Assembly: GCA_946479475.1 (NCBI GenBank)
Contig: CAMLGG010000020.1
Span: 1 to 35,946 of the forward strand
DNA: 35,946 bases
Direction: 5' to 3'
Source of the DNA: an uncultured Ideonella sp.
GTDB taxonomy: Bacteria; Pseudomonadota; Gammaproteobacteria; Burkholderiales; Burkholderiaceae
The translations under genes and the position numbers were made by a program. Each line of letters starts with the position of its first letter. The first letter of the stretch is position 1. Shown here piece by piece: positions 11,631-35,337 of the stretch. The notes below the pieces were generated by a model. The model saw only the letters and a program-made list of their open reading frames with translations, was not told the DNA's origin and searched no databases.

Positions 11631-11645
11631 GCTCGTTGCTCCGGT

Positions 11646-13862: not shown

Positions 13863-13869
13863 GGCCGGC

Positions 13870-13900: not shown

Positions 13901-13951
13901 TAGGGTCATCGCGATGCCCGGAGAGGCAGAATGGATTTGGCACCGCAGGGC

Positions 13952-13982: not shown

Positions 13983-14012
13983 AGCCGCCATCGACACCCA
14001 TCGGAGACCCTC

Positions 14013-14216: not shown

Positions 14217-14233
14217 CGGCCCGTGCCGGCCGC

Positions 14234-14247
14234 TTGATCGTCATCAA
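14234..14247 (+). promoter_or_regulatory. FNR/Anr-type box upstream of the cytochrome oxidase operon
   Basis: TTGAT-CGTC-ATCAA is a perfect match to the FNR/Anr consensus TTGAT-N4-ATCAA. If it acts as a class II activator centred at -41.5, transcription would start near 14282, 31 nt before the GTG of the first cytochrome gene. This implies low-oxygen control of the operon at 14313-19473. Confidence 0.75.
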
Positions 14248-14312
14248 GGCGGCCGCTGCGGGCACGACCGTTGCCCGCACGCTGGTCCGGTCTTCACCGC
14301 GACCACGAGCCC

Positions 14313-15047
14313 GTGCCCCAAGCTGCCCCTGCGAAGCGCCCTCGCCGGCCACGCGCCCTCATCGCCGTCGCGTGGGCGTGGCCTGCGCTTGTGGCGGCGC
14401 AGAACGAGGCCACGCCTTCGTACCAGCAGCTCGACTCGATGGAGGCCCGCGTCCAGGGCTGCGTGACCTGCCATGGCCAGAGCGGCCAGGGCACCAGCAA
14501 CGGCTACTTCCCGCGCATTGCCGGCAAGCCGGCGGGTTACCTGTACAACCAGCTCATCGCCTTCCGCGACGGTACGCGGCGCTACCCGCCGATGAACTAC
14601 CTGGTGGCGTACCTGCCCGACACCTACCTGCGAGAGATTGCCGAACACTTTGCCGGACTGCGGCCGCCTTTCGCCGCGCGGGAGCAGGCCAACGCGGACC
14701 TCGCCACCCTCGCGCGCGGCGAAGCGATTGCCAGGCGGGGCGACCCCGCCAAGGGCGTGCCGCCCTGCATGAGCTGCCATGGCGCGGGCCTGACGGGCAT
14801 GAGCCCGGGCATCCCGGGCCTGGTCGGGCTGCGGCCGACCTACATCGCGGCGCAGCTCACCCGCTGGCGGGTCGGCGAGCGGCATGCGATGGAGCCGGAC
14901 TGCATGAAGCGCATCGCCGTCCGGCTGACCGACCCGGACGTCGCCGCGGTCAGCGCCTGGCTGGCGCGGCAGGAGCCGCCAGCCAATCCGTCGCCCGAGC
15001 CCGCCAACGTCAACCGCATGCCCCTGGCCTGCGGCAGCCAGCGGTGA
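14313..15047 (+). CDS. Exported diheme cytochrome c (c4-like)
   Basis: A 244-residue cytochrome from GTG 14313. The basic n-region KRPRRPR and a hydrophobic stretch (ALIAVAWAWPALVAA) form a signal peptide. Two CxxCH sites are present: CVTCH (near residue 50) and CMSCH (near 151), with c4-type surroundings (FPRIAGKPAGYL, IPGLVGLRPTYI) and Met residues as sixth ligands. It could carry electrons to the ba3-like oxidase. The expected start from the FNR-box position favours this GTG over a TTG at 14271. It is first in the operon and ends 6 bp before the triheme cytochrome gene. Confidence 0.85.
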   Translation: MPQAAPAKRPRRPRALIAVAWAWPALVAAQNEATPSYQQLDSMEARVQGCVTCHGQSGQGTSNGYFPRIAGKPAGYLYNQLIAFRDGTRRYPPMNYLVAYLPDTYLREIAEHFAGLRPPFAAREQANADLATLARGEAIARRGDPAKGVPPCMSCHGAGLTGMSPGIPGLVGLRPTYIAAQLTRWRVGERHAMEPDCMKRIAVRLTDPDVAAVSAWLARQEPPANPSPEPANVNRMPLACGSQR

Positions 15048-15053
15048 CGGGCG

Positions 15054-16340: not shown

Positions 16341-16354
16341 GCCGGAGGCATCAC

Positions 16355-16516
16355 ATGGACGATCCGCTTGCCGAGGAAGACCGCCGGGTCGACGAGATCG
16401 TCTCGCGCGGCCCGCGAGGGGCCTTCGCGGTGGCCGGCGTGGCCACGGCCATCGTCGTCGCCCTGTACGTGCTCTTCTACTTCGTGGTCTACCTGCCGCG
16501 GGGGGCGGTGCAATGA
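16355..16516 (+). CDS. Small single-helix protein, likely oxidase subunit IIa-like
   Basis: A 53-residue protein: charged N-terminus (MDDPLAEEDRRVDEIV), then one membrane helix (GAFAVAGVATAIVVALYVLF) and a short tail. A one-helix protein encoded just before subunit II is typical of ba3-type oxidases, where subunit IIa supplies a helix missing from subunit II. Here subunit II has its own helix, so this may instead be an accessory stabiliser. GGAGG lies about 7 nt upstream of ATG 16355. The stop overlaps the next start (ATGA at 16513-16516), implying translational coupling. Confidence 0.72.
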   Translation: MDDPLAEEDRRVDEIVSRGPRGAFAVAGVATAIVVALYVLFYFVVYLPRGAVQ

Positions 16517-17073
16517 GGGCAGCGATGCACGCTTCGGAGGCGGTCTCCATCGCCGCCGAGCGGCGCTGGGCGTTCATCGTGATGGCCATCATCGGCCTGC
16601 TGGTCCTGATGATGGTCGTCACCGGGCTGCACTGGGCCGCGATGCCGCCTTCGCGTGTCGAGACGGTCGACGTGAAGACGCTGCACCTGCGTGGCGAGTT
16701 CATCGAGAGCAACCTGGGCACCGCGCTGGAGCCGGATGGCCAGGTCGTCGTGCGGCTCATCGCGCAGCAGTACTCGTTCGAGCCGCAGTGCCTCGTGGTG
16801 CCGGAGGGCCTGCCCGTCACCTTCCGCGCAACGGCCACCGACGCCATCCACGGCTTCGTCGTCGGGCGGACGAACGCCAACACGATGCTGGTCCCCGGCT
16901 TCGTGGCCACCTTCACCACCACCTTCCCGGCGGCCGGCGAGCAGCTCATGCCCTGCCACGAGTACTGCGGCACGGGACACGAGGCGATGTGGGGCCGGGT
17001 GCAGGTGTGGCCGCGGCAGCAGTTCCTCGACCGGGCGCGGCCCGGGGAAAGGCTGAGCTGTGTTGCACGCTAG
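16513..17073 (+). CDS. Cytochrome c oxidase subunit II (Cu_A), ba3-like
   Basis: A 186-residue protein with one N-terminal membrane helix (FIVMAIIGLLVLMMVVTGL) and a periplasmic cupredoxin domain. The Cu_A site is complete: CHEYCGTGHEAM supplies both Cys, Glu, His and Met, and the remote His lies in AIHGFVVG. It accepts electrons from cytochrome c and passes them to subunit I. ATG 16513 overlaps the previous stop; ATG 16525 has a better-spaced GAGGG and is equally possible. The single helix and short length fit the B-type oxidase branch. The 3' end overlaps the subunit I start by 14 nt. Confidence 0.9.
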   Translation: MRAAMHASEAVSIAAERRWAFIVMAIIGLLVLMMVVTGLHWAAMPPSRVETVDVKTLHLRGEFIESNLGTALEPDGQVVVRLIAQQYSFEPQCLVVPEGLPVTFRATATDAIHGFVVGRTNANTMLVPGFVATFTTTFPAAGEQLMPCHEYCGTGHEAMWGRVQVWPRQQFLDRARPGERLSCVAR

Positions 17074-18682
17074 CAAGCTCGTCCTCGCGCACTTCTGGGT
17101 GGCCTTCGCCGCCTTCCTCGGCGCGCTGGTGCTGGGTGCCTGGCAGATGTACATCCGCAGTCCGCTCGCCACCTGGGTCAACAACCCCGAGCACTACTAC
17201 CGCTCGGTGACGGCCCACGGCACGGTCATGGCCTACGTGCTGCCCACCCTCGTGGCGATGGGCTTCGGCTACGCGATCACCGAGCTGGCGCTGAAAAGGC
17301 CGCTCATCGGCCGGCGCTGGGCCTGGGCGGGATTCTGGCTGGTGATCGGCGGCACGGCGATGGCGGCGGCGACGATGGCGGCGGGAAAGGCCTCGGTGCT
17401 CTACACCTTCTACCCGCCGATGCTGGCCAGCCCGTTCTACTACTTCGGCGTGGTGCTGGTGGTGGTCGGCTCGTGGGTCTGGGTCGCGCTGATGTCGGTC
17501 AACCTGCACGCGTGGAAGAAGGCGAACCCCGGCGAGCCGGTGCCGCTGGCCATGTTCGGCAACGTCGCGGGCGCCTACCTGTGGGCCTGGACCTCGCTCG
17601 GCGCGGCCATCGAGGTGCTGGTGCTCATCCTGCCGGCCTCGCTCGGCTTCACCGACACCATCAATGCCGGCCTGGCCCGGGTGTTCTTCTCATGGACGCT
17701 GCATGCCATCGTGTACTTCTGGCTGATGCCTTCCTACATCGTCTTCTACACGATCGTCCCGCGGGCCATCGGCGGGAGGCTCTACAGCGACACCATGGGC
17801 CGCGTGGCCTTCGTGCTGTTCCTGGTCTTCTCGATGCCCATCGGCATCCACCACCTCTTCGCCGATCCGCAGGTCGGAGCGGGGTTCAAGTTCGTGCATG
17901 CAGCGATGACGGCCATGGTGTCGGTGCCGACCCTGCTCACGGTGTTCACCATCGTCGCCTCGGTGGAGATCGCGGGCCGGCTGCGCGGCGGCCAGGGCCT
18001 GTTCGGCTGGATCCGGGCGCTGCCCTGGGACAACCCGATGATGCTGGCGGTGACCTTCTCGTTCGTGATGCTCGGCTTCGGCGGAGCAGGCGGGATCATC
18101 AACATGAGCTACCAGCTCAACGAGACGATCCACAACACCCAGTGGGTCACTGGGCACTTCCACCTCATCTTCGCCGGCGCCATCGTGCTGATGTACTTCA
18201 TGGCCGCCTATGAACTGTGGCCTCAGCTGACCGGCTGCGTTCCGGTCCCGGCCGGGCGGGTCAAGCTGCAGGTCTGGCTGTGGTTCGTCGGGATGATGGT
18301 GCTTTCGATGCCGTGGCACCTGGTCGGGCTGCTGGGCATGCCGCGCCGCATGGCCTACTACGACTACAGCCACCCCCAGCTGCAGCCGCAGGCCTGGACC
18401 GTGACCGTGTCGGCCATCGGCGGCTTCATCCTGCTGGCGTCGGGCATCCTGCTCGTCGCCAACCTGGCCGCTGCGCACCGGCACAAGGCGACGACCGTGG
18501 GGCCCTTCGCCTTCAGCCGGGCCGCCCACGCCGGCAACCACACCCCCGCCTCGCTCAACGGCTTCGGCCTCTGGCTGGCGATGATGATCGGCCTGAGCGT
18601 CGTGAACTACGGCTATCCCATCGTGCAGCTGGCCTCGCTGAAAGAGGCCTCGGTGCCGGTGATCCCGATCGGGAGCCGCTGA
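17060..18682 (+). CDS. Heme-copper oxidase subunit I, B-family (ba3-like)
   Basis: A 540-residue membrane protein with about 12-13 helices, starting at GTG 17060 after GGGGAAAGG. Ligands seen: low-spin heme His in TAHGTVMAYV; Cu_B His and the cross-linked Tyr in LHAIVYFW; the His pair in GIHHLFADP; active-heme and low-spin His in TGHFHLIF. The HxxxY spacing with YFW and the absence of the A-family Glu motif place it among B-family ba3-like oxidases, which usually have high oxygen affinity and one proton channel. It would reduce O2 to water with cytochrome c electrons. It overlaps subunit II and shares a TGATG junction with the next gene. Confidence 0.92.
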   Translation: MLHASKLVLAHFWVAFAAFLGALVLGAWQMYIRSPLATWVNNPEHYYRSVTAHGTVMAYVLPTLVAMGFGYAITELALKRPLIGRRWAWAGFWLVIGGTAMAAATMAAGKASVLYTFYPPMLASPFYYFGVVLVVVGSWVWVALMSVNLHAWKKANPGEPVPLAMFGNVAGAYLWAWTSLGAAIEVLVLILPASLGFTDTINAGLARVFFSWTLHAIVYFWLMPSYIVFYTIVPRAIGGRLYSDTMGRVAFVLFLVFSMPIGIHHLFADPQVGAGFKFVHAAMTAMVSVPTLLTVFTIVASVEIAGRLRGGQGLFGWIRALPWDNPMMLAVTFSFVMLGFGGAGGIINMSYQLNETIHNTQWVTGHFHLIFAGAIVLMYFMAAYELWPQLTGCVPVPAGRVKLQVWLWFVGMMVLSMPWHLVGLLGMPRRMAYYDYSHPQLQPQAWTVTVSAIGGFILLASGILLVANLAAAHRHKATTVGPFAFSRAAHAGNHTPASLNGFGLWLAMMIGLSVVNYGYPIVQLASLKEASVPVIPIGSR

Positions 18683-23660: not shown

Positions 23661-23761
23661 GACAGTCGACCGTGCCGCAGCGCTCGCCCTGGAGAAGAAG
23701 GTGACGGCGCGCTCGGTCGCGTCATCACTGTTCATTCAACTTGCAAGAGGAGTCATCTCGA

Positions 23762-25405
23762 ATGGGTGCAATCAAGAACGCCTTCAAGGCCATAGCCAAG
23801 GGGGTCGAGAAGGCCGTCCACGGCGCGGCCCAGTTCGCCAAGGGCATGGCCACGCTCAACCTCAAGGCCGCGGCCCAGGGGCTCAAGGAGATCGCGCATG
23901 CGGGGACGGACATCGCCCGCGGCGTGATCAATCTCACCCCGGCGGCGCTGGCGGCCAACACCTTGCTGGACGGGGCGCTCGACAAGATGCTGAAGAAGGC
24001 CTCCAAGGTGGTGGACAAGGTCGCCGACACCATGGTGGACAGCGTCGAAGGTGGCCTGTCGAACATCAAGAGCGGGCTGGAGAACACGGTCAAGGGCCTG
24101 GCCACCGGCGACTTCAGCAAGGTCGCGAGCGGCCTGAAGGACCTGGCCCTGGGCGCCGTCGAGACCGCCTCGAACTTCGGCCCGGGCGGCATCGCCAAGA
24201 ACGTCGCCCGCATGGCGGTGGACGCGGCCATCGACGTGGCCTCGCAGCAGGCGATGACCGCCGCTGCCAAGGTGCTGGACCCGAACGGCACCTCCAAGCT
24301 CGGCGGCATGGCCGTCGACCTGGTCGGCGCCGGCGTCAGCGGCGGCATCGGTGCCAGCCGCGCCGGCAAGTTCGCCAACGGCGAGGTCGACACGCTGCGC
24401 AAGCGCCCGGGTGTCGACGATGGCCTGGACGCCTGCGGCCCGAGCGGCTTCAAGGCCGGCGCCCGCAACGGCGTCGAGAACGCCGCGCTGGACATGGCCG
24501 AGACCATGATCCACCAGGCCGTCGGCGAGCTGATGACCAAGCTGCAGAACACGCTGGACCCGAACGGCAACTCCAGCGCCGTGGACAACGGCGTCAACTC
24601 CCTGTCCAACCTGCTGGACACCGCCGCCTCCGACGCGATCGACCGCCGCCGCCAGCGCATCAACGATGGCCCGCAGACCCGGCAGCCGCACGGCCCGAAC
24701 GGCCCCGAGCCGACGCACGCCTCGCACCAGAGCCTGCGTGCCGACGTGCGCGATGCGGTCGAGATGGCCGTCATGCAGGCCGTCGAGGCCGCGATCCAGA
24801 CGGCCGTCATGGCCGCCATCGACAAGGCGATGCAGTCGCTGCCGAATGACCAGAAGGGAGCCTTCGGCGCCCTGGCGCTGATGGCCGCCGGGGACGCGAT
24901 GTTGAACGCGACCCACCGCGCGACCACCGGCCGGGTCGAGAACCGCATCGACAGTCGTGGCATGGGTGGCACGCCGGGTGCGAACGGCCCGAACGGCTCC
25001 GGTGGCGGCACGATGCGCGACATCGCCCAGGGCTTGAAGCAGGACCTGCGCGGCGCGATCGAGACGGCCGTGCAGATGGCCGTCGAGCTGGCGGTCCAGA
25101 CGGCCGTCCAGGAGATCACCGAGCAGGTGCTCAAGCAGGCAGGCCAGCCGGGCGCCAAGCACTGCATCGGCCACGAAGGCAGCCCGCTGCACGACGGTCT
25201 GCGCGGCGCACTGCAAGGCGCGGTGGAACGCGCTGCCGGGCAAGCCGTCGCGGCGACGGTCGAGGCCGTCGGCGCGATCGCCGCCCGCGCGCTCGCGGCC
25301 GGCTTCGGCAAGGAGCTGGACAAGCTCGCCCACGGCGGCCTGCCCCAGGGGCTCGGCCACCAGCACAACGCCGACGTGAACCTGCACATCCACATCCGCG
25401 CCTGA
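23762..25405 (+). CDS. 547-aa repetitive amphipathic protein, candidate T3SS substrate or translocator
   Basis: I recognise no family. The protein is rich in Ala, Val, Gly, Asp and Asn, with no signal peptide. The N-terminal 130 residues are amphipathic helices (AIKNAFKAIAKGVEKAV; LSNIKSGLENTVKGLATG). Two blocks end in VLDPNGTS (171-178) and TLDPNGNSS (264-272). Two later blocks begin at GPNG (311 and 409) and contain RDAVEMAVMQAVEAAIQTAV and RGAIETAVQMAVELAVQTAV. A fifth, weaker copy lies at 478-515. The end, HQHNADVNLHIHI, is His-rich. Long Ala/Val helices recall harpins and translocators, but no motif proves it. GAGGAG lies 9 nt before ATG 23762. It heads the run 23762-29418, followed 7 bp later by a YscG/HrpB1-like gene. 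Confidence 0.8.
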   Translation: MGAIKNAFKAIAKGVEKAVHGAAQFAKGMATLNLKAAAQGLKEIAHAGTDIARGVINLTPAALAANTLLDGALDKMLKKASKVVDKVADTMVDSVEGGLSNIKSGLENTVKGLATGDFSKVASGLKDLALGAVETASNFGPGGIAKNVARMAVDAAIDVASQQAMTAAAKVLDPNGTSKLGGMAVDLVGAGVSGGIGASRAGKFANGEVDTLRKRPGVDDGLDACGPSGFKAGARNGVENAALDMAETMIHQAVGELMTKLQNTLDPNGNSSAVDNGVNSLSNLLDTAASDAIDRRRQRINDGPQTRQPHGPNGPEPTHASHQSLRADVRDAVEMAVMQAVEAAIQTAVMAAIDKAMQSLPNDQKGAFGALALMAAGDAMLNATHRATTGRVENRIDSRGMGGTPGANGPNGSGGGTMRDIAQGLKQDLRGAIETAVQMAVELAVQTAVQEITEQVLKQAGQPGAKHCIGHEGSPLHDGLRGALQGAVERAAGQAVAATVEAVGAIAARALAAGFGKELDKLAHGGLPQGLGHQHNADVNLHIHIRA

Positions 25406-25412
25406 GGCCTCC

Positions 25413-25826
25413 ATGACCTACCCGATTCCCCCCATGCCGGTCCACGAGGCCGCGACCCTCGAGACCGAGGACCCGGTCGTCGCCCTGGCGACGGCCCTGG
25501 TCGAAGCCATCCGCGACGACCGGCTGGACGAGGCCGAGACCATGCTGGAGGAGCTCAACGCGATGAGCCCCGAGACCGAGGAGTACCTGATCTTCCCGGT
25601 GCTCATCGCCATCCAGCGCGGCTACATCAAGGAGGCGCTGCAGTACCTCAACGAGCACCTGGAGGAGGACGCCGCGCCCGAGCTCAAGGCCCTGTGCCTG
25701 AACATCCTCGGCGACCCGACCTGGCACCTGCACGCGCAGCGCGGCCTCGAGAGCGAGGACGAGCACGTGCGCCTGGCCATGCGCCAGCTGCTGCAGATCG
25801 AGCCCGAGGCCGGCTCGGTCCACTGA
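25413..25826 (+). CDS. TPR-like T3SS protein, YscG/HrpB1-like
   Basis: A 137-residue acidic, all-helical protein. Two to three helix pairs are visible: DDRLDEAETMLEELNAM, RGYIKEALQYLNEHLEE and ELKALCLNILGDPTW. The pattern IxRGYxxEAL...KALCLxxxGDPxW recalls HrpB1/HrpK and YscG-type proteins, which are TPR-like needle or substrate chaperones. It starts 7 bp after the 547-aa gene, so it may be that protein's chaperone. It shares the GDP-x-W feature with the gene at 35374-35781 and the two could be paralogues. Assignment rests on pattern and context rather than a firm family match. Confidence 0.68.
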   Translation: MTYPIPPMPVHEAATLETEDPVVALATALVEAIRDDRLDEAETMLEELNAMSPETEEYLIFPVLIAIQRGYIKEALQYLNEHLEEDAAPELKALCLNILGDPTWHLHAQRGLESEDEHVRLAMRQLLQIEPEAGSVH

Positions 25827-25847
25827 CGGCACGCGAGGTCCGAAGCC

Positions 25848-26303
25848 ATGCTCAGGCTCACCCAGGAAGCCGACCTCGGCGTCATGTACGACGCGGATGC
25901 GGCGCGTTATGCCGACGCGGGCAGCGAGTGCCTGCAGGTGGTCACGCGCGACGCCTTCGTGTCCTTCTACCAGGGCTGCCCGAGCATCGGCTTCGAGGCC
26001 GACGGCCAGGCCATCGGCGGGATCCTGTTCGACGGCGAACAGGCCCACATCGCCGTGCTGCCCAGCCACCACGGGCGCTGGGCGCTGCTGCTCAAGCCCG
26101 CGCTGGACTGGCTGTTCTCGCTGCAGGCCGAGATCCTGGTGGAGGTGGAGCGCGACAACACCCGTTGCCTTCGCTTCCTCGATCGCCACGGCTGGCCGCG
26201 CGTCGGCGAGACGGAGGACGACATCGTCTTCCGGCTCGTCCCGCAGGACGGACAGCGCAAGACCGCCTATCCCTTCTCCGGCCTGCGCCACAGGCCCCAC
26301 TAG
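25848..26303 (+). CDS. GNAT-fold-like protein in the T3SS island
   Basis: A 151-residue protein with GNAT-like order: a strand pair (SIGFEADGQAIGGILFD), the core strand and loop AHIAVLPSHHGRWALLL in place of the usual V.P..RG.G loop, then VEVERDNTRCLRFLDRHGWP, which matches the N..A..FL...GF motif. The acetyl-CoA loop is degenerate, so it may bind another acyl donor or have lost activity. It lies 21 bp after the YscG/HrpB1-like gene and 10 bp before the 270-aa gene. A role in modifying a secreted protein or host target is speculation. Confidence 0.65.
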   Translation: MLRLTQEADLGVMYDADAARYADAGSECLQVVTRDAFVSFYQGCPSIGFEADGQAIGGILFDGEQAHIAVLPSHHGRWALLLKPALDWLFSLQAEILVEVERDNTRCLRFLDRHGWPRVGETEDDIVFRLVPQDGQRKTAYPFSGLRHRPH

Positions 26304-26313
26304 CCATCACGCC

Positions 26314-27126
26314 ATGCAAGCCCATACCCACGCCCCCACGCACTTCCCGCCCCTCTTCCCCGGCGTCATGCCGACCGTGCCCACCCCGCCGCGACGGCCC
26401 GGCCGCGGGATCACGCCGCCCTCGCGAGGCAGTCGCCCCGGGCTGCAGCTGCGCCGGCTCTCGCTGATGGACCCGCCCGTGATGATGGGCGAGGGGGATC
26501 CGCGCGCCGCGGGCGTCTGGGTCTCGGAGGACATGTCGGTCGCCGGCGGTGCCACGGGCCTGACGCGCCGGCATCTCGCGCTGCAGGGCGTGCTGCTGAG
26601 GCTGAGCATGCTCGGCGGCAGCGACGGCCTGGCGACCAACCGCATGCTGCGCACGCTCGTCAGCAGCGAGCTGACCCACGTGCACGTCAGCAGCAGCGAC
26701 TTCCAGTACCTCGCCGCCGACTTCACCCCGCTCGGCAGCGAAGAGCCGGCGCAGGTCGGCGTGGCCTTCATCGACGAAAGCCGCGACTGGCTGGTGCTCG
26801 ACGCCGAGCGTTGCTTCTCGAGCCAGCACATCGACCCGACGCCGGCGCTGCTCGCGTCCCTGGCCCGCCTGGCCGAGCTGCCCTACCCGGCCCGCCGCCG
26901 CCTGGCCACGCCGGGCGAATCGCTGGAAAGCATCGAGACCTGGCGTCCGCTGATGCTCGAGGCGGCCCGCAAGCTGATGCGGCGCAGCCTCGGCGAGCCG
27001 GGCGTGGGCCTGTCCGAACGCGCAGCCGAACTGGCGCGCCAGCTGGGCCCGGCGCCGCTGATCCACTGGCTGCTGTCGGACCTTCCGATGCCCGTGCCCG
27101 AGCTGCGCAACGAGCGCATCCGCTGA
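26314..27126 (+). CDS. 270-aa hypothetical protein of the T3SS island
   Basis: I do not recognise a family. The first 50 residues are Pro/Thr/His/Arg-rich and probably disordered (HAPTHFPPLFPGVMPTVPTP), like many secreted T3SS proteins. The rest looks folded: a helix LALQGVLLRLSML, a strand-rich part (HVHVSSSDFQYLAADF; QVGVAFIDESRDWLVLDAE) and a helical C-terminus (LMLEAARKLMRRSL; ELARQLGPAPLIHWLLSDL). No signal peptide or membrane helix is seen. ATG 26314 is in tight order after the GNAT-like gene; 39 bp separate it from the 750-aa gene. It could be a chaperone-like or effector protein; neither can be shown. Confidence 0.72.
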   Translation: MQAHTHAPTHFPPLFPGVMPTVPTPPRRPGRGITPPSRGSRPGLQLRRLSLMDPPVMMGEGDPRAAGVWVSEDMSVAGGATGLTRRHLALQGVLLRLSMLGGSDGLATNRMLRTLVSSELTHVHVSSSDFQYLAADFTPLGSEEPAQVGVAFIDESRDWLVLDAERCFSSQHIDPTPALLASLARLAELPYPARRRLATPGESLESIETWRPLMLEAARKLMRRSLGEPGVGLSERAAELARQLGPAPLIHWLLSDLPMPVPELRNERIR

Positions 27127-27165
27127 AGGCGCACTTTCTCCCTTGGTCGCCTGCAGGAGTCACGC

Positions 27166-29418
27166 ATGGTCAACCGGATCCATCCGCTCAGTTCGTCGTC
27201 AGTCAGCTCCGGGCGAATCCAGTCGCCTGGCACGGGCCAGACCCAGGGGCCACGCGGCCCGCAAGGGCCCAGCCCGACCCATCCGAAGACGCTCGAGCGC
27301 ATCGGGCCCCTGGCCGGGCTGATGAGCCGGGGCATGCGGCCGGCGAAGGAAGCCGACACCCGCCGCGCCGAGCTGCCGCGCGGCCGCGATGCCGGCGGCA
27401 GCCGCTCCTGGATGTCGTCCATGAAGCACGCAGCCAGCAAGACCGGCCAGGCCATCAGCTTCGGCTTCAACCGGGCGGGCCAGGTGGTGCACAAGTTCGG
27501 CCGGGCCATGAACGAGCCCCACGGCGAACCGGCGTGGATGCGCCACATGAGCCAGGAGGAGCGGGCGCACTACGACTACTACGGAGAGCTTCCGGCCGAG
27601 TCGTCGCACGCCTCGCACTCGTCCTCTGTCGCGCCGCCGTGGGAGCAGCCCGGCCCTGCCTCGCCGTCACGCCGGCAAGAGCAGGTGGAAGTGCGGCACC
27701 GCCCCATGACCGCGCAGGAGCAGGCCGCCGAGAACGAGCGGGCCGAGTACTACAACGAGAGGCCGCAATCGACGATCACGGAGCACGTCAGCCGGCCGTC
27801 CTCGACTCCGGTTTCGCCCAGCACCTCGCCCAGCGCCTCGCCGGGCCGCACGAACGTCGCGCCGCCCGAGGCGCAGCGCCCGGCGTCGCGCCCGACCGGC
27901 ACCGGCCGGGATGCCTTGCTGGCCAACATCCGCCACACCATTCCCCGCATGGACCTGAACCGGCTCAACCACGCCGAGCCGCAGGATTTCGTGCGGTTCG
28001 CGCTCCACCTTTCCCGTGGCACCCGCTACGAGGAGGGCATGAAGCAGCGCGCTGCCGGCGAGCCCGGCCTCGGCGGCGAGATGAGGACCCGCTGGATCGC
28101 CCTGCAGAACCACCTCAACGGCCTGCGGGCTCAGGGCCACGAGAACGTCCCGAGCGCGGAGTGGCTCTTCCACAACCGGTCGGTCCGCATGATGAGCTTC
28201 CTGGTGGATGGCAGCGGGGGCAGCAAGCTGGTGGAGCCGACTGCACCGCGCACGGCGGCCGAGAACCCTGCTTCGGCCGCCCACGGCTCGCCCGCACGCC
28301 CGAGCCGGCCCCAGCCCGTGGCCCAGAGCCAGGCGCCGGCGGCCTCCACTGGTTCGCCGGTCCATACGCCTGCGAACCGCGCGCTGCGAGGCGAAGTGCT
28401 CAGGCAGGTCGAGGCCTTCGTGACCGACCGCAGGCGCAGCGCGCCGACCCGCGAGCGGCCACTCGCCGCCATGCAGGCGCTGGACAAGCTGTCCGACCAC
28501 TTGACTTCGCCGGCGCAGTACGGCGAGCTGCTCACGGAGCTGAAGACACTTCTGCGGACTTCCAGCAGCGCCCGGCGCAACGAAGGCTTGAAGGCCTTCA
28601 CCGACAAGGTGACGCGTTTCACCGCGAACATCGAGCGGGCCCGGACCGAGCCCCAGCCGCGCCCGCAGATGCAGGCCCCGGCCAGCCCGCCGCCCCGGCA
28701 CACCGCTGCGGCGCCGTCCGTCCTGGACTACGAAGACTTCAAGCGCATGGAACAGGAACGGGCCGACTACCACCACGAGCGGCCGGACTTCGCGGCGGCC
28801 AGGGACGAGTACCAGGACTACCTGCGCCGGCGGGCGCAGGCGGAATCGCCCGCCGCGACGACCCATCAGCCGGCAAGCCCCTCCCGAAGCGAAAGCCCCG
28901 TTGAGACCGCTGCCCCCGAGCAAACGTACGACCGGCCGCTCGCGGAGTTCCATCGCGACGAGGAGGAGTCGGCCGCCTATCACGGCGTGCAGCCGAACTA
29001 CGCCGAGGCGCGCTGGAAGTTCGAGACCCAAGGTTCGAGTGCTTCGCAGCGGGCCGAGCCCGCGCCGCTGCCCGGCCCGGTCGGCCAGGCGGTCCAGCAG
29101 TACCGCGCCTGGATGTCGTCCCCCGGATTCGGGCAGCGCTTCGGATCGACGGGTCGGAACCTGATGTCGGATGCCTTGGGCGCGCTGGAGCAGCATGGCG
29201 CGAAGCTGCCGCCCGCCAAGCTCGAATCACTCGTGCGCGACCTCGGCCGGATCGTGGGCGAGAGCGTGAACAACCCGGTCAGGCTCGGACAGCTGCGAGA
29301 CTTCGTTGCCGACCTCCGCGAAGCCTCGCGGCCATCCCAGGCGCAGCCGGGCTCGCGCCTGGATGAGCTCCGGCGGCAGCAGGAAGAAGCGCGCTACTAC
29401 GGCCACGAGCCATACTGA
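27166..29418 (+). CDS. 750-aa candidate effector with five Tyr/Pro repeat motifs
   Basis: No family recognised. The protein is hydrophilic and Pro/Ser/Arg-rich with no signal peptide. The N-terminus (VNRIHPLSSSSVSSGRIQS) is Ser-rich, as in many T3SS secretion signals. Five motifs follow the pattern A-x-Y-[YH]-x3-P: ERAHYDYYGELP (132-143), ERAEYYNERP (191-200), ERADYHHERP (531-540), ESAAYHGVQP (601-610) and EARYYGHEP (741-749), the last ending the protein. Between them are folded-looking helical parts, about 245-345 (RDALLANIRHTIPRMDLNRL), 400-490 and 636-722. GCAGGAG lies about 8 nt before ATG 27166. It is last in the plus-strand run and is followed by REP-like hairpins. Effector status is inference from context and composition. 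Confidence 0.8.
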   Translation: MVNRIHPLSSSSVSSGRIQSPGTGQTQGPRGPQGPSPTHPKTLERIGPLAGLMSRGMRPAKEADTRRAELPRGRDAGGSRSWMSSMKHAASKTGQAISFGFNRAGQVVHKFGRAMNEPHGEPAWMRHMSQEERAHYDYYGELPAESSHASHSSSVAPPWEQPGPASPSRRQEQVEVRHRPMTAQEQAAENERAEYYNERPQSTITEHVSRPSSTPVSPSTSPSASPGRTNVAPPEAQRPASRPTGTGRDALLANIRHTIPRMDLNRLNHAEPQDFVRFALHLSRGTRYEEGMKQRAAGEPGLGGEMRTRWIALQNHLNGLRAQGHENVPSAEWLFHNRSVRMMSFLVDGSGGSKLVEPTAPRTAAENPASAAHGSPARPSRPQPVAQSQAPAASTGSPVHTPANRALRGEVLRQVEAFVTDRRRSAPTRERPLAAMQALDKLSDHLTSPAQYGELLTELKTLLRTSSSARRNEGLKAFTDKVTRFTANIERARTEPQPRPQMQAPASPPPRHTAAAPSVLDYEDFKRMEQERADYHHERPDFAAARDEYQDYLRRRAQAESPAATTHQPASPSRSESPVETAAPEQTYDRPLAEFHRDEEESAAYHGVQPNYAEARWKFETQGSSASQRAEPAPLPGPVGQAVQQYRAWMSSPGFGQRFGSTGRNLMSDALGALEQHGAKLPPAKLESLVRDLGRIVGESVNNPVRLGQLRDFVADLREASRPSQAQPGSRLDELRRQQEEARYYGHEPY

Positions 29419-29436: not shown

Positions 29437-29720
29437 CTCAAGCTTGTCGAAGCCCCTGCGCGCGGGGCCCTTCGACAGGCTCAGGGCGAACGGATGGTGG
29501 TGTGGGGATGGTGGTGTGGCAGCCGATCGGCATCGCAGCCCGGTCGGGGTGAACAACTCCCCCGTTGGGCCGAGCCTGTCGAAGCCTCATCTGCCAGGGC
29601 CCTTCGACAGGCTCAGGGCGAACGGTTGGAGGGCGCATCCGCTCCATCGTTTCCGTTCAGGCTGAGCCTGTCGAAGCCCTCATCTGCCAGGGCTTCCACA
29701 GCCCCAGGGCGGGCGGTTGG
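29437..29720. repeat. REP-like palindromic repeats between convergent genes
   Basis: TTCGACAGGCTCAGGGCGAACGG occurs exactly twice (29471-29493 and 29603-29625; core TTCGACAGGCTCAGGGCG). Each is preceded by the complementary arm AGC[C/T]TGTCGAAG (29441-29452 and about 29573-29584), so each unit folds into a hairpin. A third, degenerate unit (CCGTTCAGGCTGAGCCTGTC at 29653, then a decayed arm to about 29720) is inverted. Such REP/BIME-like units often end transcription between convergent genes. The 309-bp gap 29419-29727 holds nothing else I can support. Confidence 0.82.
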
Positions 29721-29727
29721 TGGCGGG

Positions 29728-30414
29728 CTACAGCCCTTCGTACAGGCGCCGCACCTTGCGGACGTAGTCCTGCGTTTCCCGGTAAGGCGGGACCTGGTAG
29801 CCGTGGCGCACCACCGCGCCCTCGCCGGCGTTGTAGGCGGCCAGCGCCAGGTCGGTGCGGCCGAAGCGGTCGAGCAGCTCGCGCAGGTAGCGAACGCCGA
29901 TGTCGACGTTGACGCGCGGGTCGAACAGCGACTCCACCGACTCCGCGCCGAAGCGTGCGGCCGTGGCCGGCATCAGCTGCATCAGGCCGATCGCCCCCTT
30001 GGGCGAACGCGCGTTGCTGGCGTAGTTGGACTCGACCTGGATCACTGCGTGCACCAGGCGTTCGTCGACACCATGGCGGTCGGCCGCACTGGCGATGAAA
30101 TCCCACCACTTGCTCGACGGCAGCCACGCCGGAGCCGGTGCGGTGCCCCAGCGCGACGTGACCACGCGCACCTCGGTGCCGCCTGGCGGCAGCAGAGGCG
30201 GCCGGGGAGGCAACGGCGCCGACGCCGGCTCGGGCGCCGGTGCAGCCACGGGCCGGCACTCGCCCACCGCCGCCGGGAAGCGGGCGGCGAGATCTTGCGA
30301 GACGGTGCGCCAGGTGTTGCTCTCGGCGATGCGGCATTCGAAGCTCGCGGCCCAGGCGCTGGCGTGGCTGCCGGCCAGCCAGGCCAGCGCGAGGGCGAAC
30401 CGCGGGGCGCTCAT
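29728..30414 (-). CDS. Exported lytic transglycosylase (SLT domain), T3SS-associated
   Basis: A 228-residue protein with signal peptide (MSAPRFALALAWLAGSHASAWA). A Pro-rich linker (about 55-85, with APAPEPASAPLPPRPP) leads to a C-terminal SLT catalytic domain: VIQVESNYASNARSP contains the catalytic Glu of the ES motif, followed by GAIGLMQLMPATAARFG and ALAAYNAGEGAV. Such small enzymes (IpgF/HpaH type) locally open peptidoglycan for secretion machines. ATG 30414 is 5 nt past the methyltransferase stop; a GTG at 30426 in frame would overlap that gene. It is probably cotranscribed with the methyltransferase from the box-bearing promoter at 31974-31998. Confidence 0.9.
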   Translation of the reverse strand: MSAPRFALALAWLAGSHASAWAASFECRIAESNTWRTVSQDLAARFPAAVGECRPVAAPAPEPASAPLPPRPPLLPPGGTEVRVVTSRWGTAPAPAWLPSSKWWDFIASAADRHGVDERLVHAVIQVESNYASNARSPKGAIGLMQLMPATAARFGAESVESLFDPRVNVDIGVRYLRELLDRFGRTDLALAAYNAGEGAVVRHGYQVPPYRETQDYVRKVRRLYEGL

Positions 30415-30419: not shown

Positions 30420-31907
30420 TCACCACAGGCGCAGCAGTGCCATCAGCGGCACGCGCCGGTCGAGGAAGCGCTCGGCGCTGGCGTAGCAGTCTTCACGGCT
30501 GCCGCCGAACTCGGCGTGCATGGCTTCGGCCAGCTTCGCCGGGCAGACCTCTTTCAGGCCGCGGTAGGCGCCCAGCTGCACCAGCGCGGGTGCGCTGAAG
30601 CCGAGCGCCTGGCCCGTGCCCGCGCAAGCCAGGTGCAGCAGACCGTCGGCCCCCTTGCGGGCAATGGCCACGGCGTTGAACCGCTCCACGCTCGCCTGCG
30701 CCGCCTCTGCCAGGCCGTCGGGCAGCGCAGGGTGAACGAGGCCGCGGCCGGACAGCAGCATCAGCGCATCGAGCAGGCTCCGCGCGCCCCGGCCTTCGAA
30801 GCGATCGTGGCCCAGCAGTTCCCGGACGCTGCGGGGCTCGTTCGACAAGGCGTCGAGCAACGCTGCCGCCAGCGTCGGATCGACGACGCTCGCGGCGCGG
30901 CCGACCAGCACCTCGCGCGGCACCTCGGCGCGAGCCACGGCCAGGGCCCAGCGCCTGTCGAGCAGGCGATCCTCGTGGGCGGCGCTCGGCAGTGCCTCGG
31001 CGTCGCGCACGTAGAGATCGCGCCGGAACGCCTGGTTGACCATCACGTCGCGCCAGGTCTCGCGCCACACCGGGTCGGGCTCGGCGAGCAGCCTGGCCTG
31101 CGCCGCCTCCTCCATCCAGGCCGCGTCCACGTGCTCCTCCAGCAGCGACGAGGCGGCGCGCGTCAGGCCGGCACTGCCCATCTGGTCGGCCACCTCGTAC
31201 ACGTACTGCGGTTGCCAGTAGGGATTGAAGTACTCGTGCGCCGCGTAGCGAGGATCTGCTTCGCCGAGCTCGGCCAGGCGCGCCGCCGCCGAAGGGCTGG
31301 CCTCGAAGTAGCGCGCGCCCAGGCCCTGCAATTCGTTCATCACCTGCAGCACGTCCGTCAGCTGCTCGGCCGGGCTGCGGTGCACGCCCGCGCGGATGAC
31401 GTGGCGATGGATCAGCTGCCGCAAGGGCATCTGCGCCGCCCATCCCGGCAGGGTGTTGTGGCTGACGTAGACGACGCCGCCGGGCTTCAGTCGCCGCTCG
31501 ATGAAATCGAGGATCACCTGCCGCTGCGCCGGGCTCACCCAAGAGTACACGCCGTGCATGGTGATGAAGTCCATCTGCGGCAGGTCGCGCTGCAGCAGTT
31601 CGTCGAAGCCGTCCTCGAACAGCTCCACGTTGTCCAGGCCCGCGTCGCCCGCCAGCTTGCGCGCGTAGGCGACGTGCTCCGGATTGAAGTCGTTGCCGAA
31701 GAAGCGCATGTGCGGGAAGCAGGCCGCGTTGGCCAGCAACGAGACGCCGTATCCGAAGCCCAGCTCGCAGTAGTTCAGCGGCGCGGCGAGGTCGGGCGGC
31801 GCGATGCCCTTGCTCTCGAGGGCGGCCGCGATCATGGTCGGCGACAGCTCGCGGTAGTAGCCGTGGGTGTAGGCCACGTGGCGGATGGACGGTTCGTTCG
31901 TGCTCAT
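30420..31907 (-). CDS. Class I SAM methyltransferase with PF10119 regulatory domain
   Basis: A 495-residue protein. Residues about 40-190 form a class I methyltransferase: motif I CELGFGYG (47-54), acidic post-I segment GNDFNPEHV (71-79), then DFITMHGVYSWVSP and LKPGGVVYVSHNTLPGW. The next part (about 215-310, with HEYFNPYWQPQYVYEVADQM) matches the methyltransferase regulatory domain PF10119. The C-terminal third is helical. Rickettsial protein-lysine methyltransferases PKMT1/2 share this architecture, so a protein substrate is possible. AGGA lies 6-9 nt before ATG 31907. It is divergent from sctC and apparently in an operon with the lytic transglycosylase. No signal peptide. Confidence 0.87.
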   Translation of the reverse strand: MSTNEPSIRHVAYTHGYYRELSPTMIAAALESKGIAPPDLAAPLNYCELGFGYGVSLLANAACFPHMRFFGNDFNPEHVAYARKLAGDAGLDNVELFEDGFDELLQRDLPQMDFITMHGVYSWVSPAQRQVILDFIERRLKPGGVVYVSHNTLPGWAAQMPLRQLIHRHVIRAGVHRSPAEQLTDVLQVMNELQGLGARYFEASPSAAARLAELGEADPRYAAHEYFNPYWQPQYVYEVADQMGSAGLTRAASSLLEEHVDAAWMEEAAQARLLAEPDPVWRETWRDVMVNQAFRRDLYVRDAEALPSAAHEDRLLDRRWALAVARAEVPREVLVGRAASVVDPTLAAALLDALSNEPRSVRELLGHDRFEGRGARSLLDALMLLSGRGLVHPALPDGLAEAAQASVERFNAVAIARKGADGLLHLACAGTGQALGFSAPALVQLGAYRGLKEVCPAKLAEAMHAEFGGSREDCYASAERFLDRRVPLMALLRLW

Positions 31908-31973
31908 GGCGAGTCCTGGTGGATGAATGCCGGCGCATTGCATCGCGCGCGGGGCCGCCCGCCGGGCAGCGTG

Positions 31974-31998
31974 TCGAAGCGATGGCGTGAAAGACGAA
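31974..31998 (-). promoter_or_regulatory. PIP/hrpII-like box facing the methyltransferase gene
   Basis: On the minus strand TTCGT (31998-31994), N15, TTCGA (31978-31974). This satisfies the hrpII form TTCG-N16-TTCG and differs from the PIP form TTCGB-N15-TTCGB only in the last base. TGCAAT lies 31 nt downstream (31942-31937), one mismatch from the YANNNT -10 motif. Confidence 0.55.
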
Positions 31999-32060
31999 GG
32001 CGCGCGCCAGGGCGTTCTCGCTCCGGCGCTCACGCACTCGCCGCCTTCGGACTCGCCGCC

Positions 32061-32122
32061 TTCGCACCGCTCCGCGCGGCTTCGCGTCAGGCCCTTGCCG
32101 CAGCGGGTCCGCGGCCTACGCT
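32061..32122 (+). promoter_or_regulatory. PIP box and -10 motif of the sctC operon
   Basis: TTCGC (32061-32065), N15, TTCGC (32081-32085) is an exact PIP box. TACGCT (32117-32122) fits the -10-like YANNNT and starts 31 nt after the box, inside the 30-32 nt window known for HrpX-regulated promoters. It predicts control by an AraC-type HrpX/HrpB regulator. The expected start is near 32129, 30 nt before the sctC TTG. Confidence 0.7.
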
Positions 32123-32158
32123 GCATCCCAGATCGAAACACGAACCCGGACCACAGCC

Positions 32159-34057
32159 TTGAACCACCTCGCCACGCTCAACAAGCCAAGCCGCGCTCCG
32201 CTGCGCGCCGCCAGGCTCACGCTGGCGATGGCGCTGGCGGGACTCGGCGGCGCAGGCCTCGACGGGCAGGCAGTCGCCGCCGAAACGGCCCCGTTGAAGC
32301 TGAGCCAGGATCTTTCCGGCAACACGCCCGTGCGGCAGAAGACGGCACTCACGAGCCGGGCCGCCGTGGCGTCGGCCACCGCGCCGGTCGCCCAGGCCGC
32401 CCGTTCGTCGAACGCCCTGGACCGCGGCCGCTTCGTCTACCGCGCCGAGGGCAAGCGCCTGTCGGACGTGCTGCAGGACTTCGCGGCCAGCCAGGGCGTG
32501 CCGGCCGTGGTGGCCGACGGCGTCGAGGGCGTGGTCAACGCGAACTTCGATGCGCGCCCGAGGGAGTTCCTCGACGGCATCTCGCGCGCCTACAACCTGC
32601 TGTGGTACCACGACGGAACGGCGTTGTACTTCTACCCCGGCCGCGCGGTGCAGAGCCGCCTGTTCCGCCTCAAGGGCTTCCGCCGCGAACAGCTCAACGG
32701 CCTGCTCGACTCGCTGCGCCTGGGCGACAAGCGCTACCCGATCCGCTACGACCAGGCCAACAGCACGCTCTACATCTCCGGCCCGCCGCGGCACGTCGAG
32801 CTGATCAGCGCCGCGCTCGACTCGCTCGACGCCGGCGTGAGCGAGAGCGCCGAGCGGACAGTCCGCGTGTTCGAGCTGCAGTTCGCCTCGGCTGCCGACC
32901 GCCAGATGGGCGACACGCTCGTTCCCGGCGTGGCCTCGACGCTGCGCAAGCTCTACACCGGGGAGGACAGCGGCACCGGCCGCGCATCGGCCGACGCGAT
33001 CGACCAGATCAAGGCCAACGTGCGCAAGAAGCAGAGCGCCTCGGTGCCCATGCCCAAGGCCTCGCAGTTCCTGCCGCCGCTGCCTCGCGCCAATGCCAAG
33101 GACGGCGGCAACAGCTCCGACCCGATCTCCATGAACCCCAAGGGCGCGCCGGACGAGGACGACACGCCGCCGCGCTTCGAGGCCGACGAAGGCACCAACT
33201 CCGTCGTCGTGCAAGGCCGCGCCGACCGCATGGCCGAGTACGAGGGCCTGATCCGCCGGCTCGACCAGAAGCCCCGGCTCGTCGAGCTGGAGGCGACCAT
33301 CATCGAGGTCAACTCCGACAGCGTCGAAGCGCTCGGCGTGAACTGGTCGATGCGCGGCTCCAACGGCTCCTTCGGCGTCACCACCCCGGCGCCCGCGACA
33401 CCCGGAGCATCGAATGCCTTCACGCTCAGCACGCTGGTCTCCGATGCCGGCCGCGAGCTGCTGGCCCGCGTCAATGCGCTGCAGGGCGAAGGCAAGGCTC
33501 GCGTGCTGTCCAAGCCGTCGGTGCTCGGCGTGGCCAACCGCGCCGCGGTGATGCGCGAGAAGCGCGTCGCCTCGGTCCGCGTGGCCGGCGAGCGCGAGGC
33601 CAACCTGTTCCAGGTCGAGGCCGGCACGCTGCTGGAGATGACGCCGCAGGTCACCGACGGCGACCTGGGCGACATCAAGCTGTCGCTCTACATCGAGGAC
33701 GGCAACTTCGAGACCCGCCAGGTCGACCAGGTGCCGGTGGTCAAGAAGACCGAGATCCGCACCGAAGCCCACGTGCGCGAGGGCGAGAGCCTGCTCATCG
33801 GCGGCATCACCGTCGAGAGCGAGCAGACGCAGGACAACAGCGTCCCGGGCCTGTCGAAGATCCCCCTGCTGGGCGGCATCTTCCGCAGCACGGAGCGCCA
33901 GGTCACGCGCACCGAGCGCCTGTTCCTGATCACGCCGCGCCTGGTCGGTGCCGGGGCACGCCCGAGCACGGTGAACTCCGCCCCGGTGTCCGACACCGTG
34001 TCGGCTCCGAACGCCACCCAGCAGCAGGTCTTCGCGCAGGAGGTTCGCAGGCCATGA
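32159..34057 (+). CDS. sctC: T3SS outer-membrane secretin SctC (HrcC/YscC)
   Basis: A 632-residue secretin starting at TTG 32159, which gives a good signal peptide (RAARLTLAMALAGLGGAG...AVAAE). The N0-N1 region (about 90-165) has FVYRAEGKRLSDVLQDFAAS and SRAYNLLWYHDGTALYFYP, typical of SctC rather than type II or pilus secretins. A linker rich in Lys/Pro (about 280-335) precedes N3. The secretin core includes RLVELEATIIEVN, QVTDGDLGDIKLSLYIEDG and the hallmark VPGLSKIPLLGGIF near residue 560. It forms the outer-membrane ring of the injectisome. ATG of residue 24 would cut the signal and is rejected. The end overlaps sctD (ATGA). Confidence 0.93.
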   Translation: MNHLATLNKPSRAPLRAARLTLAMALAGLGGAGLDGQAVAAETAPLKLSQDLSGNTPVRQKTALTSRAAVASATAPVAQAARSSNALDRGRFVYRAEGKRLSDVLQDFAASQGVPAVVADGVEGVVNANFDARPREFLDGISRAYNLLWYHDGTALYFYPGRAVQSRLFRLKGFRREQLNGLLDSLRLGDKRYPIRYDQANSTLYISGPPRHVELISAALDSLDAGVSESAERTVRVFELQFASAADRQMGDTLVPGVASTLRKLYTGEDSGTGRASADAIDQIKANVRKKQSASVPMPKASQFLPPLPRANAKDGGNSSDPISMNPKGAPDEDDTPPRFEADEGTNSVVVQGRADRMAEYEGLIRRLDQKPRLVELEATIIEVNSDSVEALGVNWSMRGSNGSFGVTTPAPATPGASNAFTLSTLVSDAGRELLARVNALQGEGKARVLSKPSVLGVANRAAVMREKRVASVRVAGEREANLFQVEAGTLLEMTPQVTDGDLGDIKLSLYIEDGNFETRQVDQVPVVKKTEIRTEAHVREGESLLIGGITVESEQTQDNSVPGLSKIPLLGGIFRSTERQVTRTERLFLITPRLVGAGARPSTVNSAPVSDTVSAPNATQQQVFAQEVRRP

Positions 34058-35061
34058 AGCAGCTTCGCATCCTGACCGGCACGCACGCCGGGGTCCACGT
34101 AGATTTGATCTCGACGCGCTGGGTCATCAGCGCCGACGACGAAGCGGACATCCAGCTCCTCGACTGGACGTCCGAGCCGATGGTGATCGAGGTGGACGAC
34201 GACCAGATGCTCCGATTCGCGATGCTGCCCGCAGGCGCCGCCGAAGCCGCGGCCGATGCGTTCGCCCCGCTGGCCGACCTCGCTCCGCGCCGCTTCGGCG
34301 ACGTGGTGCTCTGCGCCGGCCCCGCCGATGCGCCGTGGCCCGCCGACGTGGACCTGATCGCTTCGCTCTCCGCCCCGGTGGCCGTGTCCGTGCCGCAGCC
34401 TGTCGCCGAGCCGGCCCGCAAGCGCCACTCGCCCTACCTGCTGCCGGCCTTCGTCGGCACCGCGCTGATGACGGCCGCGCTCGGCGCCGCCGTGGCGCGA
34501 CTGGGCCAGGGCTCGGACAGGCCCGCCAGCGGCAAGGCCGCCGTGGTCCTGCCGCTCGAGACCCGCATCGGCCGCGCGTTGGCCGACATGACGATCGATG
34601 GCCTGGAAGTGCGCAACGAAGGCGGCAGCGTCATCGTGCGCGGCCTGGTCAAGCAGCCCTCCGACGCCGATGCCGTGCGCCTGCGCCTGGCGGCGTTCAA
34701 CGGCGAGCGCGTGGTCCATGCCTACGCCGCGGCCACCGAGGTGGCGCAGAGCATCGCCGAGGCGCTGGCCCGGCCGGGCCTGAGCGTCACCCACCGCGGC
34801 AGCGGCCACTTCGTGGTCAGCGGCGAGACCGACGACCTGCCCCGTCTGCGTGAGAGCGCGCAGCGCGTGGCGGCCGACCTGGCGCCGCTGGTGCGCTCCA
34901 TCGAGGTCAACGCCGCCCAGCTGCCGCCTTCCGGCCACGCGCCGCTGTCCGCTGCGCTGAACGCGGAGGGCCTGCAGTACGTCCAGACCCGAGACGGCGT
35001 GAAGCACCTGTCCGTCACCTCCACCGAACCGGCCGAGCAGGCCGACCCCTACTCCCGCTGA
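34054..35061 (+). CDS. sctD: T3SS inner-membrane ring protein SctD (YscD/HrpQ family)
   Basis: A 335-residue protein with the SctD plan: cytoplasmic FHA-like domain (residues 1-110, starting MKQLRILTGTHAGVHVDL), one membrane helix (about 127-150, YLLPAFVGTALMTAALGAAV) and a periplasmic part of BON/ring-building repeats (IGRALADMTIDGLEVRNEGG; QSIAEALARPGLSVTHRGSG). SctD forms the outer of the two inner-membrane rings and contacts SctC. The length is slightly under the usual 360-430 residues. ATG 34054 overlaps the sctC stop by 4 nt, so the two are translationally coupled. The next gene starts 12 bp after. Confidence 0.88.
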   Translation: MKQLRILTGTHAGVHVDLISTRWVISADDEADIQLLDWTSEPMVIEVDDDQMLRFAMLPAGAAEAAADAFAPLADLAPRRFGDVVLCAGPADAPWPADVDLIASLSAPVAVSVPQPVAEPARKRHSPYLLPAFVGTALMTAALGAAVARLGQGSDRPASGKAAVVLPLETRIGRALADMTIDGLEVRNEGGSVIVRGLVKQPSDADAVRLRLAAFNGERVVHAYAAATEVAQSIAEALARPGLSVTHRGSGHFVVSGETDDLPRLRESAQRVAADLAPLVRSIEVNAAQLPPSGHAPLSAALNAEGLQYVQTRDGVKHLSVTSTEPAEQADPYSR

Positions 35062-35073: not shown

Positions 35074-35337
35074 ATGAACGACACCTTCGAGCAAACGATC
35101 TTCAGCGACCTGGCCAACCTCGAGCAGGCGCTGACGGAAGACCGCAGCGGCGAGCGCGCGCGGGCCATGATCGGCTACTTCGGCGACGTCGCGAAGGAGA
35201 GCAGCTCCATGCTGCAGACCGCGCAGGTCGGTGCCGAGCGCCAGCTCGTGTCGCAGCTGATCGAGGCCTTCTACGCCTCCCAGCGCGTGATCCAGAAGGT
35301 CTGGGAGTCGCTGCACGGCAGCGCCCTGCCCGCCTGA
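35074..35337 (+). CDS. Small helical T3SS protein, YscE-like by position
   Basis: An 87-residue protein of two or three helices (TFEQTIFSDLANLEQALT; GAERQLVSQLIEAFYASQ) with no signal or membrane segment. It lies between sctD and a YscG-like gene. In Ysc-type systems the order is yscC-D-E-F-G, where YscE and YscG together hold the needle subunit YscF; the gene order here suggests a YscE/EscE/SsaE-type co-chaperone. Sequence similarity in such small proteins is too weak to claim by eye. ATG 35074 follows the sctD stop by 12 bp. Confidence 0.68.
   Translation: MNDTFEQTIFSDLANLEQALTEDRSGERARAMIGYFGDVAKESSSMLQTAQVGAERQLVSQLIEAFYASQRVIQKVWESLHGSALPA

Follow-up and report, generated by a model that had tools for sequence, protein, structure and literature searches.

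Divergent Hrp-type promoter boxes probably couple a PKMT-like methyltransferase gene to the type III secretin gene sctC

Two promoter boxes that face away from each other in a 251-bp gap very probably switch on, by one and the same signal, the secretin gene sctC on one side and a methyltransferase-transglycosylase gene pair on the other. The gap lies near the right end of the window (the whole stretch of 35,946 nucleotides analyzed here), in a locus that, judged from its predicted homologues of HrpD5, HrpB1, and SctC, is a class II (hrp2) type III secretion system (T3SS) cluster. The boxes as such belong to a classical promoter type, and both this type and the hrcC arm are already known. It would be new for the Hrp regulon to include a surface-protein lysine methyltransferase: in the literature searched, we found no paper on a PKMT-like enzyme as a probable Hrp-regulon member standing beside sctC, as it does here in two arrangements.

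Divergent boxes between sctC and the methyltransferase gene

The features of the two arms are as follows.

29728 to 30414, minus strand: lytic transglycosylase with SLT domain (PF01464, E 4e-29), second gene of the leftward arm
30420 to 31907, minus strand: PKMT/KmtA-like methyltransferase of 495 aa, a probable protein lysine methyltransferase (PF10119 and Methyltransf_25)
31937 to 31942, minus strand: -10-like TGCAAT, exactly 31 nt after the minus-strand box; the methyltransferase ATG (31907) lies 29 nt on
31974 to 31998, minus strand: PIP-like box toward the methyltransferase-transglycosylase pair, TTCGT-N15-TTCGA
32061 to 32085, plus strand: PIP/hrpII box toward sctC, TTCGC-N15-TTCGC
32117 to 32122, plus strand: -10-like TACGCT, 31 nt after the plus-strand box; sctC starts at 32159
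32159 to 34057, plus strand: sctC secretin (TIGR02516, above cut-off)

The plus-strand box, TTCGCACCGCTCCGCGCGGCTTCGC (32061 to 32085), faces sctC, and the minus-strand box, TTCGTCTTTCACGCCATCGCTTCGA (31998 to 31974), faces the methyltransferase gene; a sequence-only reading of this DNA had reported the letters and coordinates of both, together with TACGCT at 31 nt, correctly. The PIP/hrpII promoter, as defined in the accessible text of PMC3285194, includes a YANNNT element 30 to 32 nt downstream of the box. The strict form TTCGB-N15-TTCGB is found in the plus box and in a third box farther right (described below), and each is followed by YANNNT at 31 nt (TACGCT and TAGATT, respectively). The minus box has the form TTCG-N16-TTCG and departs from the strict consensus at its final B, where it ends in A; its TGCAAT is one letter off and thus falls outside the YANNNT rule.

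An HrpX/HrpB-type AraC activator would bind each TTCG-N16-TTCG box and bring RNA polymerase to the -10 element 31 nt downstream, and the same signal would turn on transcription of sctC to the right and of the methyltransferase-transglycosylase pair to the left. The transglycosylase, whose ATG (30414) lies 5 bp past the methyltransferase stop, probably opens peptidoglycan during assembly of the apparatus. Given that the methyltransferase gene stands between the box and the transglycosylase gene in this lineage, a probable lysine-methylating enzyme would be expressed together with the injectisome. We infer the activity of the leftward arm, and likewise the binding of an HrpX-type protein to the boxes in this organism, from the comparisons that follow.

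Chance matches in GC-rich DNA have next to no probability as the origin of the boxes. TTCG is itself common in the gap (three copies on the plus strand and four on the minus strand); against this, 2,000 dinucleotide shuffles of the 251-bp gap contained a mean of 0.015 boxes, two or more boxes arose in one shuffle, and the boxes are kept in 14 of 14 genomes (see below). Shuffles and conservation both speak against a chance origin. The expectation of 0.004 boxes in the gap calculated in the sequence-only reading is lower than the shuffle mean, and the conclusion is unchanged. Across the whole window, five exact TTCG-N16-TTCG matches were found, compared to 0.75 expected from shuffles; only two of the five, at 32061 and 34044 and both on the plus strand, have YANNNT at 30 to 32 nt, a combination that did not occur in 40 whole-window shuffles. 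When one mismatch was allowed (with YANNNT still at 30 to 32 nt), the window scan returned one extra site, at 3834 within an unrelated frame, which was rejected as a further promoter, being within shuffle expectation (mean of 0.4). The T3SS genes to the left (23741 to 29418) contained no site by this relaxed rule, and the exact box on the minus strand at 23563 to 23540 has no YANNNT at 25 to 37 nt. The divergent boxes are real and look functional.

Conservation of both arms and of an HrpX/HrpB-type regulator

A search with the sctC protein yielded a first set of 11 loci (L001 to L011) from Paracidovorax oryzae, P. valerianellae, Acidovorax sp. SUPP3334, four Roseateles/Mitsuaria, two Aquabacterium, Methylibium, and Hydrogenophaga. 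In the window and all 11 loci, two exact boxes pointing in opposite directions lie upstream of sctC, and the plus box is followed by YANNNT after 31 nt in each case (12/12). The transglycosylase gene lies leftward of sctC throughout this set and in the window; the methyltransferase gene adjoins sctC in 3 of the 11 loci. Where it does not (L004 to L011), the transglycosylase frame starts near the box in four of eight loci (L004, L006, L008, and L010), so the proposal that it is the box-adjacent gene in all eight was dropped as true for four only. Another frame, of ∼138 to 178 aa, fits between the leftward box and the transglycosylase gene in L005, L007, L009, and L011, where the window has the methyltransferase. 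The box-adjacent frames differ among these eight loci, and the first place in the leftward unit therefore varies.

To this set we added loci from a family search of 399 genomes, 45 of which had an sctC match at E 1e-60; each of these with an sctD match contributed a single locus to the scan, weaker secretin hits being excluded, and together with the first set this gave 24 genomes. In 19 of the 24, an exact plus-strand box with YANNNT at 31 nt lies within the 900 nt that precede sctC. Among the other five, three have no such box and -10 element upstream of sctC, one locus is cut, and in G106 the box precedes the methyltransferase gene instead. A minus-strand box occurs within 900 nt upstream of sctC in 17 of the 24 genomes. 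Conservation in relatives had been proposed as a check in the sequence-only reading, and it supports that reading: both boxes are kept in all 14 genomes that have the methyltransferase gene beside sctC (13 relatives and the window).

In these 14 genomes the minus box always starts TTCG(C/T)CTTTC and ends TTCGA, and its -10 element, always at 31 nt, is TGCAAT in 11 and TGGAAT in 3. That the leftward arm has a conserved -10 element of its own is new here, and its two departures from the strict consensus, the final A of the box and G for A at position 2 of the -10 element, are themselves conserved. The aligned gaps of the relatives are 47 to 56% identical to that of the window, and invariant columns are concentrated in the four elements (37 of 62 columns inside versus 4 of 158 outside, leaving out the ATG and columns without a window letter). 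By element, 18 of 25 columns are invariant in the minus box and 5 of 6 in its -10 element, compared to 10 of 25 in the plus box and 4 of 6 in its -10 element; the four invariant columns outside are adjacent to, or at most 2 bases from, the plus-strand elements. Invariance of the plus-strand elements is partly by construction, because the aligned gaps were cut at the match to the plus box and its -10 element. The figures for the minus arm are free of this choice, and the plus-strand elements were found without it in the 24-genome scan. For a divergent Hrp promoter, the gap offers a clean phylogenetic footprint. One feature of it stands apart: the spacer of the minus box (31974 to 31998) shows much more conservation than a PIP box requires, for which the divergent-promoter model gives no reason, and this long conserved spacer may hold a second, overlapping site.

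The regulator, for which the sequence-only reading had suggested a genome search, was sought in relatives of the window, and an AraC-family protein of ∼500 aa of the HrpX/HrpB type was found in 21 of 21 genomes searched (11/11 in the first set and 10/10 others). In every one of these genomes the best match spans 433 or more of the 509 query residues, and in 17 of them it is on the sctC contig. The label HrpX/HrpB-type rests on size, on a C-terminal HTH_18 domain (domain search of two of the proteins), and on linkage to the T3SS; no hrp name for the protein appeared in the sources searched or among the 15 of 329 plasmid records listed. In the genus of the L002 genome (G001), which includes the L001 and L003 genomes, the methyltransferase, sctC, and the regulator are present in the same 13 of 17 genomes, so that every sctC-bearing genome of the genus has the regulator (13/13), and the remaining 4 genomes have none of the three at the E-value limits used.

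The sctC arm has further support from a published regulon. According to the accessible part of PMC6913199, HrpX (APS58_2298) of Acidovorax citrulli M6 controls hrcC in RNA-Seq, and TTCGC-N15-TTCGC precedes hrcC there as it does in the window; the printed hrcC box is identical to the plus box of L001. M6 hrpX is presumably the same gene as the regulator found in the relatives. Unlike the arrangement in the window, no leftward TTCGA box is listed in Table 2 of that regulon; the M6 search used TTCGB, and a TTCGA box therefore could not be listed, which makes this absence neutral as evidence on the leftward arm. The word methyltransferase is absent from the main text of PMC6913199 as far as it was accessible. 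Another of the closest known systems is the HpaT-HpaH operon of Xanthomonas translucens, in which, by the available portion of PMC5483457, the first gene encodes a putative translocon protein, whereas the first gene of the leftward arm in the window encodes a methyltransferase. Taken together, box and regulator conservation support the view, put forward in the sequence-only reading, that one Hrp regulator serves both arms and that the methyltransferase belongs to the T3SS regulon; HrpX dependence of the methyltransferase arm is suggested by this conservation and by an operon in one other genome, described next.

The methyltransferase and its place beside sctC

The window enzyme resembles the surface-protein lysine methyltransferases of Rickettsia in sequence and in predicted fold. 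Over residues ∼19 to 300, it matches Rickettsia PKMT2 (E 6.8e-25) and PKMT1 (E 2.6e-17). A predicted model (pLDDT 94) was compared to known structures with Foldseek, and the eight best PDB chains were all PKMT1 or PKMT2 (query TM 0.67 to 0.72; 16 to 18% identity); for the model, the match runs over the whole length (536 to 554 alignment columns; rmsd 5.6 to 6.5), and the next fold, Rv2067c, follows at TM 0.47 to 0.49. Asp73 and His118 of the enzyme align with Asp74 and His118 of RtPKMT2, which contact AdoMet (PMC11784438, accessible text), and give it the conserved Asp and His of a SAM-methyltransferase core; neither residue varies across the 65 aligned rows, which represent the window and 64 of 120 relatives listed. 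In this comparison, which covered Rickettsia PKMT1 and PKMT2 from the class of outer-membrane protein lysine methyltransferases that also includes Acinetobacter KmtA, the window enzyme shares a methyltransferase core, a predicted whole-length fold, and, with PKMT2, the AdoMet residues. What sets the window gene apart is its link to a T3SS secretin gene and an Hrp-type promoter.

A second arrangement was found in G106 (L102:6607-10213). There a canonical box, TTCGC-N15-TTCGC, is followed by TAGTCT at 31 nt and ends 71 nt before a methyltransferase gene of the same family as that of the window (506 aa; PF10119), the stop of which lies 4 bp before sctC. By its predicted genes, G106 has box, methyltransferase, and sctC in one operon, and an HrpX-type gene lies ∼9 kb from sctC. 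The enzyme is absent from all four other genomes of that genus (E 1e-40). In a tree of 132 methyltransferase rows (quick method; SH-aLRT only), starred branches separate the G106 enzyme from the window/Paracidovorax group. Two separate recruitments of the enzyme beside sctC are therefore probable, the second resting on one genome; they are unproven, because gene context was seen for a minority of the tree rows.

As described in the accessible portion of PMC11784438, surface proteins are methylated at many lysines by KmtA and the PKMTs, and the substrates of the PKMT1/PKMT2/KmtA class include OmpB and a trimeric autotransporter adhesin. Flagellin, the adhesin AtaA, and outer membrane proteins of rickettsiae are the targets of such methylation named there. 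Since enzymes of this class methylate surface proteins, an injectisome or other surface protein is the first candidate substrate of the window enzyme, and we infer that it methylates such a protein. SctC itself was not enriched in lysine when 7 genomes with the enzyme were compared to 15 without (leaving out L011, with a split SctC match, and L078, which is cut). A fuller but tentative reading, possible rather than probable, is that the Hrp regulon took in a PKMT/KmtA-type enzyme on at least two occasions, each time beside the secretin gene, and that this enzyme methylates lysine residues in an extracellular part of the injectisome (secretin, pilus, or translocon) or of a co-expressed surface protein, tuning assembly or host recognition. 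The injection machine may then be chemically modified by its own regulon, and if this is true the type III apparatus would be a new methylation target, with consequences for assembly or host recognition. In the literature searched, which mostly lay outside subscription papers, we found no earlier report of a methyltransferase in an Acidovorax hrp cluster, nor one of lysine methylation linked to type III secretion or a secretin.

Other readings of the leftward arm were weighed against a shared Hrp promoter. HrpX might drive the sctC arm alone, the leftward element being a look-alike (a site for some other regulator or part of a weak constitutive promoter) that is conserved as such. The element does carry TTCGA rather than TTCGB and TGCAAT or TGGAAT rather than YANNNT in 14/14 genomes, and more columns are invariant in its box (18 of 25) than in the plus box (10 of 25). 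However, TTCG-N16-TTCG and the 31-nt spacing are exact in the same 14, L004 to L011 hold a TTCGB-N15-TTCGB minus box at the same position although the methyltransferase is absent there (with YANNNT at 30 to 31 nt in five of these eight loci), and in G106 a canonical box precedes a gene related to that of the enzyme. We therefore regard a look-alike as quite unlikely.

A shared Hrp promoter could also serve the transglycosylase, the methyltransferase being a passenger that lies between without a role in secretion. This would fit L004, L006, L008, and L010, with the transglycosylase near the box, and L005, L007, L009, and L011, with a different frame between them. Yet within one genus all 13 genomes that carry sctC also have the enzyme and the 4 that lack sctC do not, and in G106 sctC is linked to a distant member of the family, which makes a passenger unlikely. 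An enzyme that is itself injected into host cells as an effector and acts on host proteins is also quite unlikely. Although its Hrp-type promoter beside the apparatus and the next fold match, Rv2067c, a histone methyltransferase described as secreted (in the accessible source text), would suit an effector, the nearest sequences and folds are PKMT1 and PKMT2, which, in the part of the literature available, modify the bacterium's own surface proteins. Relatives of the enzyme are, moreover, widespread with no T3SS link seen: in 38 of 43 genomes with an enzyme match, the match is not beside an sctC hit. Among plasmids, 34 records match the enzyme. Expression of the methyltransferase with sctC from the divergent Hrp promoter remains the preferred reading.

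A third box at the sctC/sctD junction and the neighboring genes

Rightward of the gap, the following features were found.

34044 to 34068, plus strand: third PIP box, spanning the end of sctC and the beginning of sctD; its exact form occurs in 21 of 24 genomes
34054 to 35061, plus strand: sctD, HrpD5 family (NF041525, 311.9 bits; cut-off of 300)
34100 to 34105, plus strand: -10-like TAGATT in the sctD coding sequence, 31 nt downstream of the third box
35074 to 35337, plus strand: HrpD6-like gene, first whole gene past the third promoter (NF041505, E 2.5e-7; 30.8 bits, below the cut-off of 100)

YANNNT follows the third box at 31 nt in 20 of the 21 genomes in which the box is exact. The residue at sctD codon 16 can be Val, Ile, or Leu, but 20 of 24 genomes encode it by NTA, compared to an expectation of 0.37 from these genes; CTT stands at codon 4 in 23 of 24, compared to 0.92 expected. 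As a control, the other Val/Ile/Leu positions in the first 30 codons of sctD have NTA in 0 to 1 genome, with the exception of codon 6 (5/24). Rare NTA and CTT codons are kept, and therefore the DNA, not the protein alone, seems to be under selection. That the third box seems to force rare codons at the sctC/sctD junction is new here, and it offers an example of a promoter constraining codon choice.

Transcripts from the third promoter would start inside sctD, past its ATG, and would therefore serve later genes or a shorter SctD (internal start candidates are found from 34180 on). In the accessible part of PMC6913199, an M6 box identical to the third box of L001 is assigned to the HrpX-regulated gene APS58_2329; there the printed distance is 7 bp, and the printed coordinates are 1007 bp apart. 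By our own reading of these data, 1007 bp would place APS58_2329 just past sctD, at the position of the HrpD6-like gene.

The HrpD6-like gene is followed by an HrpB1-like gene that, like it, falls below its profile cut-off. A match to HrpB1_HrpK (PF09613) at 25413 to 25826 is above the Pfam cut-off, though TIGR02561 is below its own. This match is part of a region (25413 to 26303) with HrpB1/HrpK-like and GNAT-like genes, the GNAT-like gene being just under the Pfam cut-off, that is 68 to 81% identical in L001 to L003, L103, and L104. To the left of the T3SS, 8745 to 18682 contains PQQ-dependent dehydrogenase, copper-type P-ATPase, and cytochrome oxidase-like genes, with no link to the boxes seen. 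A 750-aa frame in the T3SS region (27166 to 29418) appears by eye rich in Pro and Ser, with repeated Tyr-rich stretches; it had no Pfam or NCBIfam match and no tblastn match in L001 to L011 at E 1e-4. Just past the transglycosylase gene, 29441 to 29690 holds several inverted repeat copies (GAGCCTGTCGAAG / CTTCGACAGGCTC), which may be a repeat element or a terminator.
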